DNA of 12,578 nt from Planctomycetota bacterium (GTDB lineage Bacteria > Planctomycetota > Brocadiia > JAJRTI01): NCBI GenBank assembly GCA_024278415.1, contig JAJRTI010000174.1:1-12578 (forward strand), given 5' to 3'. Numbering within the stretch: the stretch's first letter is position 1; each line of letters starts with the position of its first letter. Below the pieces are notes generated by a model, which was given only the letters and a program-made list of their open reading frames with translations, ran no database searches and was not told the DNA's origin. This document shows positions 3,543 to 11,302 of this stretch, one piece after another. A program made the position numbers and the translations under genes.

Positions 3543-4670
3543 CTAGTCCTTCCAATCGCCCAGCGTGTAGTAGCTCACGTGCAGCAACTCGTGGAAGTCC
3601 TGGGCCAGGCTGTACTCATCGTCCTTCTTGCGCACCAACTCCGCGGCCTCCAGCCCGGCGAGGGCTTTCTCGAGGAACGACGGGCTCGACGCCTGGGCCT
3701 TGCTGATCTTGGGCGATTGTTTCACCCGTGCGGCGATCTCGTCCCACGAGAACCACTCCTTGGGCCCGGCGTCGAGCCGCTCGTCGTCGGGCAGTAGGAC
3801 CTCGAGCACGGGCAGGAAGGCGCGCTTGACCCCGCGCACGATGTTGCCGCGCATGGTCCAGACCTTGCCGTGCGTGCGCGCGGCGTGGAGGAAACCTCGC
3901 AGGACCATGCGCTCCGCGTCTGAGTCGGCCGCCTGCTCTGGCGTGATGTGGGTGATGGGCCGCCCCCACTCCTCCTCCACGATCTTCTCGACCTCCTCCC
4001 GCGGCTGCTCCGACGCGTAGAACACGGCCGGCACGCGGTCGTGCTCGGACAGGTCGGCCTTGGCCACGGAGACGAGAATCTGCACGTCCTCGAACGTGCC
4101 TTTCTCCTTGTTCATCACTTCGACGAGATCTTCAATGGCCCGGCGCGCGGCGGAGTTGTATGGCCCGGTGCCGCGCACGAAATCCGCGAGCGGCTCGTGC
4201 ACCTTGGCCTTGCCGATCTCGTAGATAGGCCCGGTGATCTTGAACACGCAGCGGTTGCCGAACTGCTCGCCAAACACGGCGAGGAACGCGGCCTGCACCA
4301 TCTTCAGCACCGGCGCGTGGTCGTCGGGCATGGGGTTGAAGGTGAGCGTGATCTCCGACAGCGGCCCAGACGCGACGCCCGCCTCGACGACCTCATGGAA
4401 TAGCGGAAAGAGCGCTTCGAGTTCTCCTTCGAGCCGCGCGCGGCGCCACACGCGCCGGCCCACGTCCACGCACGCAGACGAACTCATGCCCCGGGGCCTG
4501 GTGAAGATCTTGGGCTTGCCGCCGAACTGGCTGCCGATGAGGATGAATTTGGCGTAGGGCTTGCGCAGTTCGTGAAACTTGCTGGCCACCGCCGGAGTGA
4601 GGCTATAGTTGCTCTTGGGGGCGAACACCGCGCGCACGTCTGCACAGATGGGTTTGAGTCCGAAGGGCAT
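3543..4670 (-). CDS. Unrecognised 375-aa protein
   Basis: I do not recognise this protein. It has no signal peptide and no long hydrophobic segment, so it is probably cytoplasmic. The body (about 1-270) mixes helices and strands (for example ITLTFNPMPDDH, CVFKITGPIYEIG, VQILVSVAKADLSEHD). The C-terminal part (about 295-375) has WDEIAARVKQSP and FLEKALAGLEAAELVRKKDDEY, a pattern seen in winged-helix domains; this is only a suggestion. The ATG at 4670 is preceded by pyrimidine-rich sequence without a ribosome site, and 13 bases upstream begins a nine-copy 7-bp tandem repeat. Ends in TAG. It stands alone: 350 bp separate it from the epimerase and 199 bp from the exporter gene upstream. Coding is supported by a long open frame, a balanced protein-like composition and conserved-looking charged/hydrophobic alternation. 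Confidence 0.7.
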   Translation of the reverse strand: MPFGLKPICADVRAVFAPKSNYSLTPAVASKFHELRKPYAKFILIGSQFGGKPKIFTRPRGMSSSACVDVGRRVWRRARLEGELEALFPLFHEVVEAGVASGPLSEITLTFNPMPDDHAPVLKMVQAAFLAVFGEQFGNRCVFKITGPIYEIGKAKVHEPLADFVRGTGPYNSAARRAIEDLVEVMNKEKGTFEDVQILVSVAKADLSEHDRVPAVFYASEQPREEVEKIVEEEWGRPITHITPEQAADSDAERMVLRGFLHAARTHGKVWTMRGNIVRGVKRAFLPVLEVLLPDDERLDAGPKEWFSWDEIAARVKQSPKISKAQASSPSFLEKALAGLEAAELVRKKDDEYSLAQDFHELLHVSYYTLGDWKD

Positions 4671-4683
4671 GGGGGTGTAACGA

Positions 4684-4746
4684 GTAAAACGTAAAACGTA
4701 AAACGTAAAACGTAAAACGTAAAACGTAAAACGTAAAACGTAAAAC
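4684..4746. repeat. Heptanucleotide tandem repeat, 9 copies of GTAAAAC
   Basis: Nine exact copies of the 7-mer, 63 bp, strongly AT-rich against its GC-rich surroundings. It lies in the 5' region of the unrecognised gene. A partial copy in the opposite orientation sits at 4838-4857 (TTACGTTTTACGTC...), and a second 7-mer, CGCATTG, is doubled at 4784-4797. None of the three forward frames contains a stop across the array, which creates spurious FYVLRFT repeats in translations. Copy-number change by slippage would alter spacing upstream of the gene. Confidence 0.95.
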
Positions 4747-4869
4747 GGAAGGCGGAGGAAGCAGGGGGAAGCGGGCGAGGTTTCGCATTGCGCATTGCGT
4801 GCAACGTATCTTCAGACCGCGCTCGGCGCGCCTCTGCTTACGTTTTACGTCTTTACGCGCTACTTTTCC

Positions 4870-6639
4870 TCACCCTGTCGCGGTTTGGCCTCCCTCTCCG
4901 CCTTCGTCCGTCTCCGCGTCTTTGGGCTGGTAGAGTTCCTTGTAGAGGCCATCCTGCTCCAGCAGCTCCTCATGCCGGCCGATCTGTTCGATGCGGCCGT
5001 TGCGCATGACGAGGATCTTGTCCGCGTCGCGGATGGTGGAGAGCCGGTGCGCGATGACGAACGTGGTGCGGTCTTCCATGAGGTGCGTCAACGCCTCCTG
5101 CACCTTCGTTTCGGTGGCCGTGTCTAGAGCGGACGTGGCTTCGTCGAGAATGAGGATGCGCGGGTTGCGCAGGAGTGCGCGCGCGATTGCGATGCGCTGC
5201 CGCTGGCCGCCGGACAGGCGAATGCCCATGGAGCCGGTCTCCGTGTCGTACTGGTCGGGCAGTTGCATGATGAAATCGTGCGCGTTCGCGGCCTCCGCGG
5301 CTTGGATGACCTCCTCCCGCGTCGCTTGGGGCCGGCCGTAGCGGATGTTGTCCTCGATGGTGCCGCTGAACAGATAGGTTTCCTGGAGCACCGTGCCGGT
5401 CTGGTCGCGGAACGTCTTCAGTTGCAGGTCGCGGATATCCACGCCATCGATGAGGATGTCGCCGTCCGTGCGGTCGTAGAAGCGTGCGATCAGGTTCGCC
5501 ACGGTCGACTTGCCCGACCCGCTTGGCCCCACGAGTGCGACCACTTCGCCGGGGTTTGCGACGAACGACACGTCCCGCAGCACCTCCTCCTCGCCGTCGT
5601 AGCTGAAGCACACGTTCCTGAACTCGACCCGGCCGGTGATGTTGCGCAGCGTCACCGGCTCTTCGGCTTCCTCCACTTCGGGCACCATGTCCATGATTTC
5701 GAACACACGATCCACGCCGACGCGGGCGGACAGGAACTGGCTGAGCATGGAGATGAACTTCTGGATGGGCGATTGGAGCATGCCCATGTACGTGACGAAC
5801 GCGAGGTACGTTCCGATCTTGAGTTCGCCGTTGATGACCGTCATGCCGCCGAACCAGAGGAAGATGAGCCGGCCGATGGAGGCGAGCGCTTCCGTGGTCG
5901 TGCCCCAGGTCATGGACAGCACGCGGAAGTCCAGGCCGAGGCCGAAGAGTTCCTTCGTGTCCTGGACGAACGTCTTGCTTGCGCGGGATTCCGCGTTGAA
6001 CGACTTCACGACCTTGGCTCCGGCCATGAGTTCGTACGCGGCGCCATGGACCGACTGCACCTTGTCGCGCATGCGGCGATTGGTGGCCTGCACGCGCTTG
6101 CTGAAGACCAGATAGGTGGCCACCTGGAGCGGCAGGATCGCGCACACGACGAGGTACAGCTTCACGTTGATGCAAAAGATGATGACCAACGTGGAGAAGA
6201 ACATGAAGACCTCAATGGGCAACTGCATGGCGGGGCCCATGATGAGCGTGCTGATCGACGTGACGTCGGACATGAGCCGGGACATGATCTCGCCGGGCCG
6301 GCGCGTGTCATAGTAGCTGAGCGAGAGGCGTTGCAGGTGCTGGAAGAGCCGGCGCCGCAAGTCGAACACGAGCCGGCTGCCCACGTAGCTCATGGTGTAC
6401 CTGTTGGCGAAGCTCATGACCTGCCGAAAGATGCTGAGCAGCAGGAGCCACCCGATGATGACGATGAGCAGTCCGCGATCCTTGCCGGGGAACGCGCTGT
6501 CGATGAGGAACTTCGTGGGCCACGGCTGCACCAGGCGCAGTGCGGATAGCACGAGCATGACCAGGAAGACCTGGAAGAGCAGCCCGGAGTAAGGCCTCGC
6601 CATGTGGATGACGCGGCCAAATGTGTTCTTGCGTTCCAT
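4870..6639 (-). CDS. MsbA-type ABC exporter half-transporter (fused membrane and ATPase domains)
   Basis: 589 aa, the usual length for a type IV ABC half-exporter, which would work as a homodimer in the inner membrane. The N-terminal membrane domain has hydrophobic segments near 20-40, 57-72, 138-158, 160-178, 250-270 and 276-296. The ATPase domain has A-loop Tyr347, Walker A GPSGSGKST (371-379), Q-loop Gln419, signature LSGGQ (475-479), Walker B ILILDE (495-500) and H-loop His531. All catalytic residues are present. MsbA-like proteins export lipid A or other lipids and drugs; the cargo here is unknown, and the nearby nucleotide-sugar genes make an envelope glycolipid plausible (inference). 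I chose the ATG at 6639 because the membrane domain starts just after it and longer frames read low-complexity leader sequence. No clear ribosome site; hairpins lie directly upstream. Confidence 0.92.
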   Translation of the reverse strand: MERKNTFGRVIHMARPYSGLLFQVFLVMLVLSALRLVQPWPTKFLIDSAFPGKDRGLLIVIIGWLLLLSIFRQVMSFANRYTMSYVGSRLVFDLRRRLFQHLQRLSLSYYDTRRPGEIMSRLMSDVTSISTLIMGPAMQLPIEVFMFFSTLVIIFCINVKLYLVVCAILPLQVATYLVFSKRVQATNRRMRDKVQSVHGAAYELMAGAKVVKSFNAESRASKTFVQDTKELFGLGLDFRVLSMTWGTTTEALASIGRLIFLWFGGMTVINGELKIGTYLAFVTYMGMLQSPIQKFISMLSQFLSARVGVDRVFEIMDMVPEVEEAEEPVTLRNITGRVEFRNVCFSYDGEEEVLRDVSFVANPGEVVALVGPSGSGKSTVANLIARFYDRTDGDILIDGVDIRDLQLKTFRDQTGTVLQETYLFSGTIEDNIRYGRPQATREEVIQAAEAANAHDFIMQLPDQYDTETGSMGIRLSGGQRQRIAIARALLRNPRILILDEATSALDTATETKVQEALTHLMEDRTTFVIAHRLSTIRDADKILVMRNGRIEQIGRHEELLEQDGLYKELYQPKDAETDEGGEGGQTATG

Positions 6640-6652
6640 GATGATCGCGTGA

Positions 6653-6690
6653 GCCGCCCAGCGGGGCGGCCGTGTGTGGGTGCGCCCACA
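6653..6690 (-). other. Two stem-loops just upstream of the exporter start
   Basis: TGTGGG-TGCG-CCCACA (6675-6690) and GCCGCCC-AGCG-GGGCGGC (6653-6670) are back-to-back perfect hairpins between the terminator T run and the ATG at 6639. The second ends 13 bases before the start codon, so it could affect ribosome access. They belong to the 5' leader if transcription reads through from the promoter at 6934. Confidence 0.5.
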
Positions 6691-6725
6691 AAAAAAGCCA
6701 ACTACGCGGCCGCGCGCAGAGTGGC
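6690..6725 (-). terminator. Intrinsic terminator on the minus strand
   Basis: Minus-strand RNA folds GCCA / TGGC (6722-6725 with 6697-6700), a small internal loop, then CTGCGCG / CGCGTAG (6713-6719 with 6702-6708) around a CGGC loop. Seven T follow at once (6690-6696). This is the only hairpin in the window with a proper T run. It lies 51 bases upstream of the exporter start, so it ends a separate RNA or attenuates the exporter. Confidence 0.7.
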
Positions 6726-6929
6726 TCGGATCTCTCGTTGCGCCGCGGGGCAGCGCAGCAGCAGATGGGGTGGGTGGTGGGACTGCCAGGTATTCGGGGC
6801 TCGCGCCCGCGTCTCCCAGTCTCTGAGCTTGGGGCACACGGCACACCTCGGCCCGCCGCGTCGGCGCGGGCCATACAAGGCAGTCGTCGTGTTCGCCGCA
6901 AGCTGCAACATGGTCATAGCCTACGACTG
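6690..6929 (-). ncRNA. Candidate structured small RNA or attenuated leader
   Basis: The unit is bounded by a promoter (6934-6962) and an intrinsic terminator (6690-6725) on the minus strand, giving an RNA of about 235-240 bases. It holds no convincing ORF: a 71-codon frame (6702-6917) lacks a ribosome site and is Arg/Pro/Ala-rich. Visible structure includes GCAGTCGT pairing with ACGACTGC near the 5' end, GGCCCGC/GCGGGCC (6850-6872), and a GGGC-GCGA-GCCC hairpin with a GNRA loop (around 6799-6810). GCGCAG at the extreme 5' end can also pair with CTGCGC inside the terminator, a possible antiterminator or closing stem. I do not recognise a known RNA class. It fills most of the gene-free stretch 6640-7105. 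The 5' end is inferred from the promoter. Confidence 0.4.
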
Positions 6930-6933
6930 CGCT

Positions 6934-6962
6934 AGTGTACCGCGCCCGCGCGTGGGTGTCAA
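6934..6962 (-). promoter_or_regulatory. Strong sigma-70-type promoter
   Basis: On the minus strand a consensus TTGACA (6957-6962) is followed after exactly 17 bases by TACACT (6934-6939, four of six). It is the only perfect -35 with ideal spacing that I found in the window. Transcription would start near 6927 and run toward the terminator at 6690 and the exporter gene. Confidence 0.65.
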
Positions 6963-7105
6963 CCAGCCAGATTGCACGGCCGCTCTGGGGGGCGCCTGCG
7001 CCGAGGCGAGTGCGGATTCCGAGAGAGCCGCCCAAATGCACGTGCGAGTTCGAGACATGGGAGGGCGCTGCACGTCCATTCTCCGCCCTGGCCGCAAGAC
7101 GCCGC

Positions 7106-8551
7106 TCATTCGACCCGCCGCGTCCGCACAGAATCGCGGCGTCGGCGCCACAGGCTGAGCGCGACGCGGAACGCGCTCCACGCGTAGTTCCACAACTGAG
7201 CGAAGCTGCCGCATTTGCGCAACTGGCGGAACACGATTTCCGGGCGGAAATAGAAGCGACGGAAGAATTGGCGATGCGCGGCCACCAAATCGGCCGCGGT
7301 GAGGCCGTGTGGGATAAACACGGGGTCCCAATAGGAAAACTTGTCCCAGCCCACGTCGAGGATCTGTCCGTGCTGTGGCGCGATGCACCGGAACTCGGTC
7401 TTGGGAATCGGCGTGGCCAGCATCATCACCGCGTCCGTCAGCGGAATAGATCGAGCGAAGCGAATCGTGTCGGCGATGGTTTCCTGCGTCTCCTTCGGGC
7501 AGCCGATCATGAAATAGCCCTTGAGCGCGATGCCCGCTTCGGTGGCCCAACGGGCCGCGTCGCGCACCTGGGCCAGGGTGATCCGTTTGTTGAGCGCGTC
7601 CAGCACCTCCTGGTTGCCGCTCTCGACCCCGATGGCGATCTGCCAACAGCCCGAAGCCTTCATGGCGCGCAGCATCTCCTTGGACACGAGATCGACACGG
7701 GTCATGCACGTCCACGCGACGCGGGGGCGCCGCCGGCGGAGGCGTTCGGCCAGCTCGAAGGTGCGCGCGTTGTCGACGGTGAACGTGTCGTCCAGGAAGG
7801 CGATCTCCCGCGCGCCGAGCGCTCGCACCGCGTAGCCCACGACCTCCTCGACGTAGCCCGCGGAGGTGGCCCGATAGCGATGGCCAAACACGGAACGGTC
7901 ACAGTAGATGCACCGGAAAGGGCAACCCCGGCTCGTGATCACGCTCACCACCGGCTCGTAGCGATACCCGCCAAGCGAAGGCCGGTAGCGCGCAGGGCGC
8001 TCCAGCAGGTGATAGGAGGGCAGGGGCAGGCCGTCGAGATTCTCAATGTATGGCCGCCGAGGGTTGATGCGGACCTCGCCGTCTCGCATGTAGGCGAGAT
8101 TGGGAATGTCCGACGGGTCGCGGCCTTCGGCCAGCGCCGCGGTCAACTCCAGGAACGTGTGCTCGCCTTCCCACAGCACCGCGTAGTCGAAGCATTCGTG
8201 GCGAACGGTTCCTTCCGGGTCGGCCGTGGCGTGGCAGCCGCCGATCAGCATGGGCAAGTCGGGCCGGGCCGCCTTCACGGCGGCCGCGACGGACGCGGCG
8301 CGGGGAAAGGTGACCGTGGTGGAGGTGACGCCGCACACGTCGGCCCGGAACCCGAGGACACGCTCCACGATTGCGCGGTTGTCGAGCCCCCACGCCTCGG
8401 CGTCGATGATGCAGACGGCATCGCCCCGCTGCTCGGCGACCGCGGCCAGGCTGCACAGCCCCATGGGCATTTCCTGCGCGCCAATGTCCCGCATGTCGCG
8501 GCCATACCGCTCACGCGAAGTGATGGGCGGGTTGATCAGAACAACTCTCAC
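7106..8551 (-). CDS. B12-binding-domain radical SAM protein
   Basis: 481 aa from a GTG at 8551. The N-terminal domain (about 1-140) is the Rossmann-like cobalamin-binding type: VRVVLINPP at the start, MPMGLCSLAAVAEQRG (29-44) and GGCHATADPEGTV (104-116). The classical B12-ligand DxHxxG is absent, as in many BchE-like members. The radical SAM core has TSRGCPFRCIYCD with Cys210-x3-Cys214-x2-Cys217 for the 4Fe-4S cluster, FLDDTFTVD, the GVESGN strand and GYFMIGCPKET. Such enzymes do radical methylation, cyclisation or rearrangement on lipids, porphyrins or antibiotics; the substrate here is unknown. The longer frame back to 8665 is rejected because a good promoter (8622-8649) lies within it; the leader would be about 65 bases. 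A purine-rich GGAAAG serves as ribosome site. The gene follows the methyltransferase pair by 237 bp but has its own promoter. Confidence 0.88.
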   Translation of the reverse strand: MRVVLINPPITSRERYGRDMRDIGAQEMPMGLCSLAAVAEQRGDAVCIIDAEAWGLDNRAIVERVLGFRADVCGVTSTTVTFPRAASVAAAVKAARPDLPMLIGGCHATADPEGTVRHECFDYAVLWEGEHTFLELTAALAEGRDPSDIPNLAYMRDGEVRINPRRPYIENLDGLPLPSYHLLERPARYRPSLGGYRYEPVVSVITSRGCPFRCIYCDRSVFGHRYRATSAGYVEEVVGYAVRALGAREIAFLDDTFTVDNARTFELAERLRRRRPRVAWTCMTRVDLVSKEMLRAMKASGCWQIAIGVESGNQEVLDALNKRITLAQVRDAARWATEAGIALKGYFMIGCPKETQETIADTIRFARSIPLTDAVMMLATPIPKTEFRCIAPQHGQILDVGWDKFSYWDPVFIPHGLTAADLVAAHRQFFRRFYFRPEIVFRQLRKCGSFAQLWNYAWSAFRVALSLWRRRRDSVRTRRVE

Positions 8552-8621
8552 GTCTTGTCTTTCCGCTCCATCCGGTTGGGCCGATTGGGGGAGCCATGCG
8601 ATGCCGCGCAGTCGCCTGCGT

Positions 8622-8649
8622 ATCATACCCTCCCGTCCTGGCTCGTCAA
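8622..8649 (-). promoter_or_regulatory. Sigma-70-type promoter of the radical SAM gene
   Basis: On the minus strand TTGACG (8644-8649, five of six) is separated by 16 bases from TATGAT (8622-8627, five of six). Transcription would start near 8615, which rules out the upstream ATG codons at 8665 and 8626 and leaves the GTG at 8551. Confidence 0.65.
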
Positions 8650-8788
8650 GCTGAGCCGCGGCCATGGTCGGGGCCCACTGCCGGACCGTGGCGAGGGCGC
8701 CCTGGGGCAGGCGAGCAGGCCCTACGCGGCCGCAATCGCCGCCGCATCCGTCCGGAAAGCATGCACGCGGTGGCAGGCCCCAACCGCG

Positions 8789-9556
8789 TCAGGTTGCCAC
8801 TGGTTCGCGCAGGCGGCCCGACTTTTTTAGGTACTGCGCGGTCGCCCAGCCCAGCGTCAACCCAGCCAGCCCGGCCCCCAGCGCGATGAAGTACGCGTCG
8901 GACGGACGCGGATTGCGCAATGCCGCCTCATACCCCAGGAGCAGCAGCGTCGTGGAGAGCCACACATAGGTGGACCCGTGTTCCTTGGCGATGAGGCGCC
9001 GCCATTGGAATCGCATGCTGCCCATGGTCTGCCGCAGGCCCCGAGGATTGGGCAGCCATCGATTCACCCGCCGGCAATAATCGTCATACTCCTGGCCGAA
9101 CTTCTCGCGCAGGTAGGCTTCTTCCGCCGCGACGATCGAGATGTACATGAGCAACACGAACGGGATCCCGATTGCGTACACCCACGGGTTATTGTGGATG
9201 ATGAAGAGGCCCGTCGCCATGAGGATGTTGCCCAGGTAGAGGGGGTTGCGGCTGTGGTTGAAGAAGCCTTCCACCACGAGCGTCGTGGCGTAGACGCGGC
9301 CATCTTTCCCGCCGCGCTTGATGTACGCGTAGCCGATAACCGCCGCGCGCAGGATCTGGCCCGTGAGCGAGATGAGGATGCCCAGCGCGTCTACAGCCCA
9401 GTCCCAACGGCCGCTCGCGGTGAAGGTCGCAGGCCGGAACCCGGCGAACAGGCCCACCATGACGACGGGGAAGACGATGTTGCGGGAGCGAAAGAACCAG
9501 TTCCCGATGCCGACGAATCGCGTGGGGCGGGAATCTGCGTCAGAGGGCGTACTCAT
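8789..9556 (-). CDS. Isoprenylcysteine carboxyl methyltransferase / phospholipid methyltransferase family membrane protein
   Basis: 255 aa integral membrane protein. Hydrophobic segments lie near 26-42, 55-76, 107-120, 124-143, 197-209 and 222-240. The family signature is clear: [14 protein letters not shown] (97-110; the His-x2-NP-x-Y part binds SAM) and [25 protein letters not shown] (145-169; EE plus the Y-x2-Y-x3-V-x-R-x-LP tail). Relatives methylate isoprenylcysteine carboxyls in eukaryotes or phospholipids and other lipophilic substrates in bacteria; the substrate here is unknown. The C-terminal 85 residues add two more membrane segments beyond the usual core. Its ATG overlaps the TGA of the cmoA-like gene (ATGA, 9553-9556), so translation is probably coupled. 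It ends in TGA; no terminator is visible before the radical SAM promoter. Confidence 0.85.
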
Positions 9557-10278
9557 TTCACTGCAATCATGCCGGCGAAGTTATACCAGCGGAAAAACTC
9601 TTCAAACTGTGAGAACCCCTGGCCCAAGAGCAAATCGCGATTCTCTTCGAGCCGGTAAGGGATGAGAACGTTTTCGAGCGCGGTGCGCTTCTGCGCGATC
9701 TCCAACTCGGAGTATCCGTTGCGCCTCTTCATCTCGTAGTAGTACTTGATGAAAAGGCGGTTGAACAGCGATTCCTCGAACATGAGCTTTTCGACGAGGA
9801 TCAGGCATCCCGCGTGCTTCAAGCCGCGGGCGATGCTGTTGATGATCCGCTCGCGATACAGCGGACGCACAAACTGGAGCGTCAGGATCATGACGACGAC
9901 CGATGCGTTCTCGACCATGAGCCCTTGGTTCATGTCCGCTTCGATCAGTTCATAGGGTCTGGTAAAGCCATGCTCCGCAAGCTTCTATCGGCCTTTCTGA
10001 AGCATTTCGGCCGAGCTGTCGATGCCCACGAATTTCACCTTGGGGTCCACCATGGTGTCGAGCGCCAGAAACGTGGTGCACGTGGAGCAGCCCAAATCGT
10101 AGAGGCAGGTCCCTTCCACGGCAAAATCCGCCGCCATCTCAGCGGTCATGCGTTGCATCTCGCCGTAGAAAGGAACCGATCGGTTCACCATGTCGTCAAA
10201 CACCGATGCGGTTTTGCGGTCAAATCTAAAATCTCGATTGCCTGCGTCTTCAGCTTCAAAAAGGTTATCTTGGCTCAT
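9553..10278 (-). pseudogene. cmoA: cmoA-like carboxy-SAM synthase gene interrupted by an in-frame TAG
   Basis: The full reading is 241 codons (E. coli CmoA has 247), opening at an ATG at 10278 with AGGGAGA upstream. CmoA converts SAM and prephenate to carboxy-SAM, used by CmoB in tRNA wobble-uridine modification. Matches: [13 protein letters not shown] (26-38), YDLGCS (60-65), [11 protein letters not shown] (83-93), ENASVVV (123-129), TLQFVRP (133-139) and [14 protein letters not shown] (185-198). The last contains the Arg equivalent to E. coli Arg199, which binds the carboxylate. Codon 98 (9985-9987) is TAG, and the same frame resumes at once with KLAEHGF. Two further changes hit conserved spots: the second Gly of motif I (GCSxG) is Cys67, and the Asn before TLQF is Ile131. 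Both fit single-base changes. Decay is the likeliest reading; assembly error or readthrough remain possible. 5' part: 97 aa, 9985-10278; 3' part: 9553-9984. Confidence 0.82.
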
Positions 10279-10342
10279 AGGGAATCTCCCTGGATGAGGG
10301 CGAGCGAAGTGGGCGAGCCCACTCACCCCGAGGGGCTCGGCG

Positions 10343-10511: not shown

Positions 10512-10704
10512 CCGTCGCGCGGCATTTCGCGACGGACACTAATGAGGAGTGCGGCGGTTCGCCGCGAAGCTGGGTGCGCGCTCTTGGCGCAGAGCCGCCT
10601 GCCGGCGCAAGGCCGTTATCATAGACAAAGAGCCGCCAAGAAGGCAAGACCCCAAGCGCTGGCCCAACAAGGGGGTCGCCGCACTCGCGCGGAAGCCACT
10701 CCCT

Positions 10705-10772
10705 GCGCTGAAGCGCTAGGCTATTCTCAGTCGTCCCTGCTACGGGGCGCCGGGCTTAAGTTCGCGCCATTG
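10705..10772 (+). repeat. Composite hairpin module, degenerate copy
   Basis: Order: hairpin GCGC-TGAA-GCGC, GGCTATTC, TCAGTCGTCCCT..GGGG, then GCTTAAGTTCGCGCCATTG (10754-10772). The same order recurs at 11255-11338 (hairpin, GGCTATTC, ACTGTCGCCCC..GGGGC, GCTTAAGTTCGCACCATTG), so this is a diverged direct repeat of a composite unit. Confidence 0.5.
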
Positions 10773-10804
10773 GGGACAAAACCCGTGCTGGCGTTCAGCG
10801 ACAT

Positions 10805-10820
10805 CGACAACATGTTGTCG
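10805..10820. other. Perfect 16-bp palindrome
   Basis: CGACAACATGTTGTCG is exactly self-complementary. It could be an operator for a dimeric regulator or a hairpin stem. It is about 760 bases from the URO-D gene start and 530 from the cmoA-like start, too far for an ordinary operator of either. Confidence 0.6.
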
Positions 10821-11129
10821 TTCGGGTTCTTCGCTGTTTCGTGTGGGTAGCGTGGCTGCTGGTACAGTTCGAGGGATTCGATTCATCCCTGCCTGTCGCA
10901 TTCGCGACGCAGACAGGGCTTTGGGCCTAGAACAGAAGGTGATAGGATGCCTGTCTGCGTGCAGCACGCACAGGGAGGCCCGAAGCCGCCCTCCCTCCTG
11001 TCCTCGGGTCTGCTGGGCGCTCAGGCCGCTTCTCCGCCGTACGGCGCAATGGCGCTGACTTAGCGTTCGCCAGCGCCGTAGGCGCGGCAGTCAATAGCCA
11101 GGCGGCGGGGGTCAACGGCCGCCCGGGGG

Positions 11130-11193
11130 CCCAAGGCGTAAGCCTTGGGAACGCTGATCGTGGCGTTCACAGAGCCCCGCAAGGGGCGACAGT
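11130..11193 (+). repeat. Hairpin module 1
   Basis: CCCAAGGC-GTAA-GCCTTGGG (11130-11149), GAACGC/GCGTTC (11149-11168), then AGCCCC-GCAA-GGGGC-GACAGT (11173-11193). The last part is an inverted copy of 11281-11302, and a related ACTGTCGCCTC..GAGGC sits between them at 11212-11230. Confidence 0.6.
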
Positions 11194-11254
11194 ACCGTGC
11201 GAACGTGGCAGACTGTCGCCTCTACGAGGCTTTGGCGCCCTTGCGTGTTGGTTA

Positions 11255-11302
11255 CCCAAGGCTCACGCCTTGGGCTATTCACTGTCGCCCCTCGTTGGGG
11301 CT
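11255..11302 (+). repeat. Hairpin module 2
   Basis: CCCAAGGC-TCAC-GCCTTGGG (11255-11274) has the same 8-bp stem as module 1 with a different loop. CTATTC and ACTGTCGCCCC-TCGTT-GGGGCT (11281-11302) follow. Conserved stems with free loops imply selection on, or transposition of, the folded form. Confidence 0.6.

Follow-up and report, generated by a model that had tools for sequence, protein, structure and literature searches.

What may be transcribed from the gap of about 470 bases between the stop codon of a radical SAM gene (7106) and the ATG of an ABC exporter (6639), both on the minus strand, and how would it be related to the exporter? This question was studied in a window of 12,578 nucleotides, that is, the whole stretch of DNA that was analysed, which appears to be an entire contig. 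An earlier description made from the letters of the window (hereafter the sequence-only reading) had placed in this gap a promoter-to-terminator unit without a protein, which would be either a free small RNA or a leader controlling the exporter by attenuation. We found that the anatomy of this proposal fits, with a promoter, a terminator, no believable protein and no Rfam family, but that the attenuation by pairing of GCGCAG with CTGCGC was not supported. The promoter (TTGACA, an exact 17-nt spacer and TACACT on the minus strand) has the coordinates that had been given, and the stem with seven T (T7) is placed downstream of it on the same strand, at 6727-6690, as had been said. The features are as follows.

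4870..6639, minus strand: ABC exporter, with transmembrane and ATPase domains on one chain
6652..6671, minus strand: 8-bp GC hairpin, past the terminator and ahead of the exporter ATG
6690..6727, minus strand: intrinsic terminator (stem 6727-6695, T7 6696-6690)
6730..6766, minus strand: hairpin preceding the terminator in the minimum-energy fold
6767..6780, minus strand: C-rich segment, predicted to be single-stranded
6781..6885, minus strand: central domain of the predicted fold, branched and with a 7-bp closing stem
6807-6796, minus strand: GCGA tetraloop on a 4-bp stem, an alternative local stem in the central domain
6895..6927, minus strand: 5′ hairpin of the predicted RNA in the minimum-energy fold, 10+4 pairs
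6927, minus strand: predicted transcription start, 7 nt past the -10 element
6934..6939, minus strand: -10 element TACACT, after a 17-nt spacer
6957..6962, minus strand: -35 element TTGACA
7106..8665, minus strand: B12-binding radical SAM protein, upstream of the leader and on the same strand as the exporter

Promoter and neighbouring genes

The -10 element ends at 6934, and the usual spacing between a -10 element and +1 puts the start at about 6927. The exporter ATG at 6639 thus lies 288 nt downstream of this predicted start. The leader promoter is well above chance. For instance, there were three promoter-like sites scoring at least 10/12 in the window, whereas 300 dinucleotide shuffles had on average 0.19 each, and sites of at least 10/12 with a perfect TTGACA appeared 0.067 times per shuffle (dinucleotide-preserving, n = 300). 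At a score of at least 9/12, there were five sites in the window and 1.6 in the shuffles. In addition, sigma70-like sites were scanned at a score of at least 7/12, with A at position 2 and T at position 6 of the -10 element and spacers of 15-19. TTGACA-17-TACACT was the sole such site on the minus strand from 7108 to 6560, and no second one was found between the terminator and the exporter on this strand. Since one promoter-like site lies before the terminator and none was found after it, the exporter would be transcribed by read-through of the terminator, unless it has a promoter of another type.

Among the 80 loci kept out of 463 confirmed ones, the relatives of the ABC exporter have 34-44% identity, and 169 of the 386 sampled genomes contain a match at E ≤ 1e-110 (the best-scoring one at 40% identity). 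For the radical SAM protein, 12 of 386 genomes gave a match at E ≤ 1e-85 (best 39%), as did, at E ≤ 1e-60, 18 of 40 genomes from one phylum. Furthermore, a single close relative of this protein was found (81%, on a contig of 11,008 bases); the nearest relative that bears a name, "Planctomycetes bacterium", is at 54% and gives a weak indication of the lineage. Another promoter-like site (10/12, minus strand, 8649-8622) falls within the beginning of the radical SAM ORF as listed and suggests that the true start codon of this gene is further downstream than listed.

Meanwhile, head-to-tail GTAAAAC heptamers are found just 3′ of the ABC exporter (window 4677-4753). Downstream of the exporter, a protein of 375 aa without a Pfam or NCBIfam family is encoded on the minus strand at about 3543-4670. 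Among 8000 candidates scored, six relatives were found, all of 375 aa and with 56-74% identity (the one at 74% on a contig of 14,987 bases), while searches of genomes gave none (0 of 386, 0 of 2, 0 of 7, 0 of 4, 0 of 74, and 0 of 386, the two sets of 386 overlapping). It is a rare, well-conserved family of no known Pfam or NCBIfam type. The viral contigs contained neither a match to the promoter-region pattern nor a relative of this protein. Finally, a CmoA-like methyltransferase gene (minus strand, 9553-10326) is apparently split over two reading frames; the CmoA models match the 5′ piece (9985-10326), and the 3′ piece is 9553-9933. The gene is either truly broken or was misassembled here.

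Terminator and predicted fold

In the minimum-energy fold, the GC-rich terminator stem has 6+7 pairs, and its seven core pairs reach probabilities of 0.90-1.0 in the full RNA. The T7 terminator is about 50 nt ahead of the exporter ATG. A T7 run preceded by sequence that folds at ≤ -15 kcal/mol turned up four times when the whole window was shuffled 60 times, and therefore T7 with a strong fold in this gap would be unlikely by chance. A looser terminator scan of the window gave no excess (6 sites vs 7.3 expected).

The predicted RNA 6927-6690 folds at -107.7 kcal/mol with a z-score of -2.18, and 3 of 200 shuffles were as good; with 60 shuffles, the z-score was -1.99. Whole-RNA folding is thus mildly stronger than that of the shuffles. 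When windows of the same length were tiled over both strands of the contig, 12 of 104 had z ≤ -2.18, and the fold alone is therefore not exceptional. The sub-domains of the leader have z-scores of -2.6 to -3.4 with limits picked after the fold was seen. Among the structures named in the sequence-only reading, the GNRA hairpin is present as GCGA on four pairs (6807-6796) and the 7-bp GC stem lies in the central domain of the predicted fold, in which the 5′ hairpin, described as one of 8 bp, has 10+4 pairs.

The sequence-only reading had also proposed two exclusive folds, in which GCGCAG at the 5′ end would pair with CTGCGC of the terminator stem. However, the stretch 6962-6690 contains GCGCAG a single time, at 6932-6927. 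Because the -10 element ends at 6934 and the start is at about 6927, all but the last base of this motif falls outside the RNA; with +1 at 6927, the start used by that reading itself, the last base alone is transcribed. Even for an RNA started at 6933 or 6932, the probability of the GCGCAG/CTGCGC pairing is ≤ 0.001. In addition, six-base complements of the terminator hairpin numbered 6 upstream; 500 mononucleotide shuffles had 3.6 of them on average, and 92% of these shuffles contained at least one. We rejected this antiterminator, since its 5′ arm is mostly upstream of the predicted +1, its pairing is ≤ 0.001 and the match is at chance level.

To compare the leader with known RNA classes, 4227 Rfam families were searched against the whole window and, with permissive filters, against 6630-7010. 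As in the sequence-only reading, no known riboswitch or other RNA class was recognised, the leader remaining below every gathering cut-off. There were four sub-threshold matches in 6630-7010, and the best of them, BcKCsr2 (RF02883, Burkholderia sRNA 2), was taken as a chance match at 20.0 bits against a gathering score of 40. It spans 6797-6690 and includes the terminator end, whereas several pairs of the model are broken in the leader. A dispersed repeat was likewise not seen: a search for repeats of at least 18 bases (seed 10) listed 20 of its 30 direct families and 25 of its 28 inverted pairs, and none of those listed has a copy inside 6690-6962. Furthermore, the leader with its flanks (7000-6640) was compared with 88 loci, in which nhmmer gave no match at E ≤ 10 and the best blastn match was at E 0.21 (16 bases). 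No close relative of the leader was among the loci reached, and this gap in the comparison does not speak against its conservation.

Elsewhere in the window, an Acido-Lenti-1 RNA (RF01687) was found in the intergenic region 10701-11302, at 11255-11302 on the plus strand (46.2 bits vs a cut-off of 37), and this region also has three weaker Acido-Lenti-1 matches on both strands and long inverted repeats. In the phylum reached via a contig with an Acidobacteria title, Acido-Lenti-1 was found at E ≤ 0.001 in 34 of 149 genomes and above the cut-off in 28 of 149, often with dozens of copies each, while the controls gave 0 of 14. Acido-Lenti-1 looks like a dispersed palindromic repeat, not a single gene.

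We consider the chances about even that 6927-6690 belongs to the exporter 5′ leader, and that this leader holds an intrinsic terminator and yields both an RNA of about 238 nt and, by read-through, exporter mRNA. RNA polymerase would start near 6927 and would meet the predicted terminator at 6727-6690. Many transcripts would stop there as this short structured RNA, while the remaining ones would run past the terminator into the exporter at 6639. The terminator may then keep basal exporter mRNA low, and the RNA set free may be a by-product or may act in trans. In favour of this reading, we counted the above-chance promoter and its being the sole site, the position of T7 near the ATG, the core pairs of the terminator and the precedent of UpsM/mraZ. 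Against it, we counted the loose terminator scan and the tiled windows that equalled or surpassed the fold.

Alternative explanations

First, the terminator could mainly end transcripts of the upstream genes and shield an exporter that has its own unrecognised promoter, TTGACA being incidental or minor. Apart from the T7 site, the minus strand of the window has no run of at least six T, and the radical SAM gene and the earlier upstream genes share the strand of the exporter, as would be expected from this explanation. However, the terminator is about 380 nt past the radical SAM stop codon and downstream of a good promoter, and the scan gave no sigma70-like site between it and the exporter. We regard this explanation as possible but rather unlikely.

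Second, the leader could be a riboswitch-like attenuator, which responds to a ligand, a protein or stress and controls the exporter via another alternative fold. A transporter gene whose leader contains a terminator would suit such a device, and the central domain has a z-score of -3.4; however, the limits of this domain were set after the fold was seen. There are also upstream complements of the loop side of the terminator (for example, 7 bases at 6861), but complements of such length are expected by chance, and no Rfam riboswitch reached its cut-off. Thus, an attenuator of this kind seems unlikely. A more far-reaching proposal is a new structured RNA class from a rarely sampled lineage, perhaps one related to Planctomycetota: a leader under the control of its terminator, in which the branched central domain 6885-6781 would sense the substrate of the exporter or the stress that it relieves, and the terminated form would in addition act as an sRNA. 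We consider this proposal improbable.

Third, the transcript could encode the 71-codon ATG ORF at 6917-6702, either as a small protein or as a leader peptide whose translation to UAG would block termination. Its ATG lies about 10 nt past the predicted start, and its UAG stop is inside the terminator stem. In UpsM, too, a small ORF runs across the terminator, with weak reporter activity (PMC5089854). Yet when the gap was shuffled 1000 times, 31% of the shuffled sequences contained an equally long ATG ORF on the same strand. In the 71-codon ORF, the GC fraction at second codon positions is 0.65, compared with 0.39-0.50 in six neighbouring genes in frame; this comparison leaves out the row of the ABC gene, which was taken one base out of frame, and a row covering two frames of a broken gene. 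One candidate and no match at E ≤ 10 came from the protein search, and no Pfam or NCBIfam family matched, so that coding by this ORF is very improbable. The ORF was rejected as a small-protein gene, having no homologues found, no support from codon bias and no above-chance length, which agrees with the earlier statement that no believable protein lies between the promoter and the terminator.

Comparison with UpsM/mraZ

On present evidence, the leader is ordinary, and as it stands it is a well-placed candidate RNA element. If the RNA is real, it would be another leader whose terminator has two roles, freeing a small RNA and gating an exporter, and it would come from a lineage seldom represented in the collections searched.

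The reading of 6927-6690 as a terminated exporter leader has a counterpart in UpsM, an sRNA from the leader of mraZ/dcw in Rhodobacter sphaeroides (PMC5089854). UpsM was shown by RNA-seq, RACE and reporter fusions, whereas the exporter leader is predicted from its sequence. In addition, UpsM precedes mraZ in another lineage, while the gene downstream is here an ABC exporter; the likeness considered is one of layout. For the mraZ leader, no nearer promoter was detected by reporter fusions, and the estimate of read-through was about 1 in 100 (PMC5089854). Both systems have one promoter and a Rho-independent terminator within the leader (predicted ones for the exporter), and a small ORF overlaps the terminator in both leaders. 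The mraZ gene has no nearer promoter, and for the exporter the scan gave no nearer sigma70-like site; the leader lengths are 268 nt for UpsM/mraZ and a predicted 288 nt for the exporter. The promoter, the intrinsic terminator and the exporter start codon follow one another on one strand, which is the UpsM-like layout. A terminated leader, or an sRNA derived from a leader, is an already known kind of arrangement.
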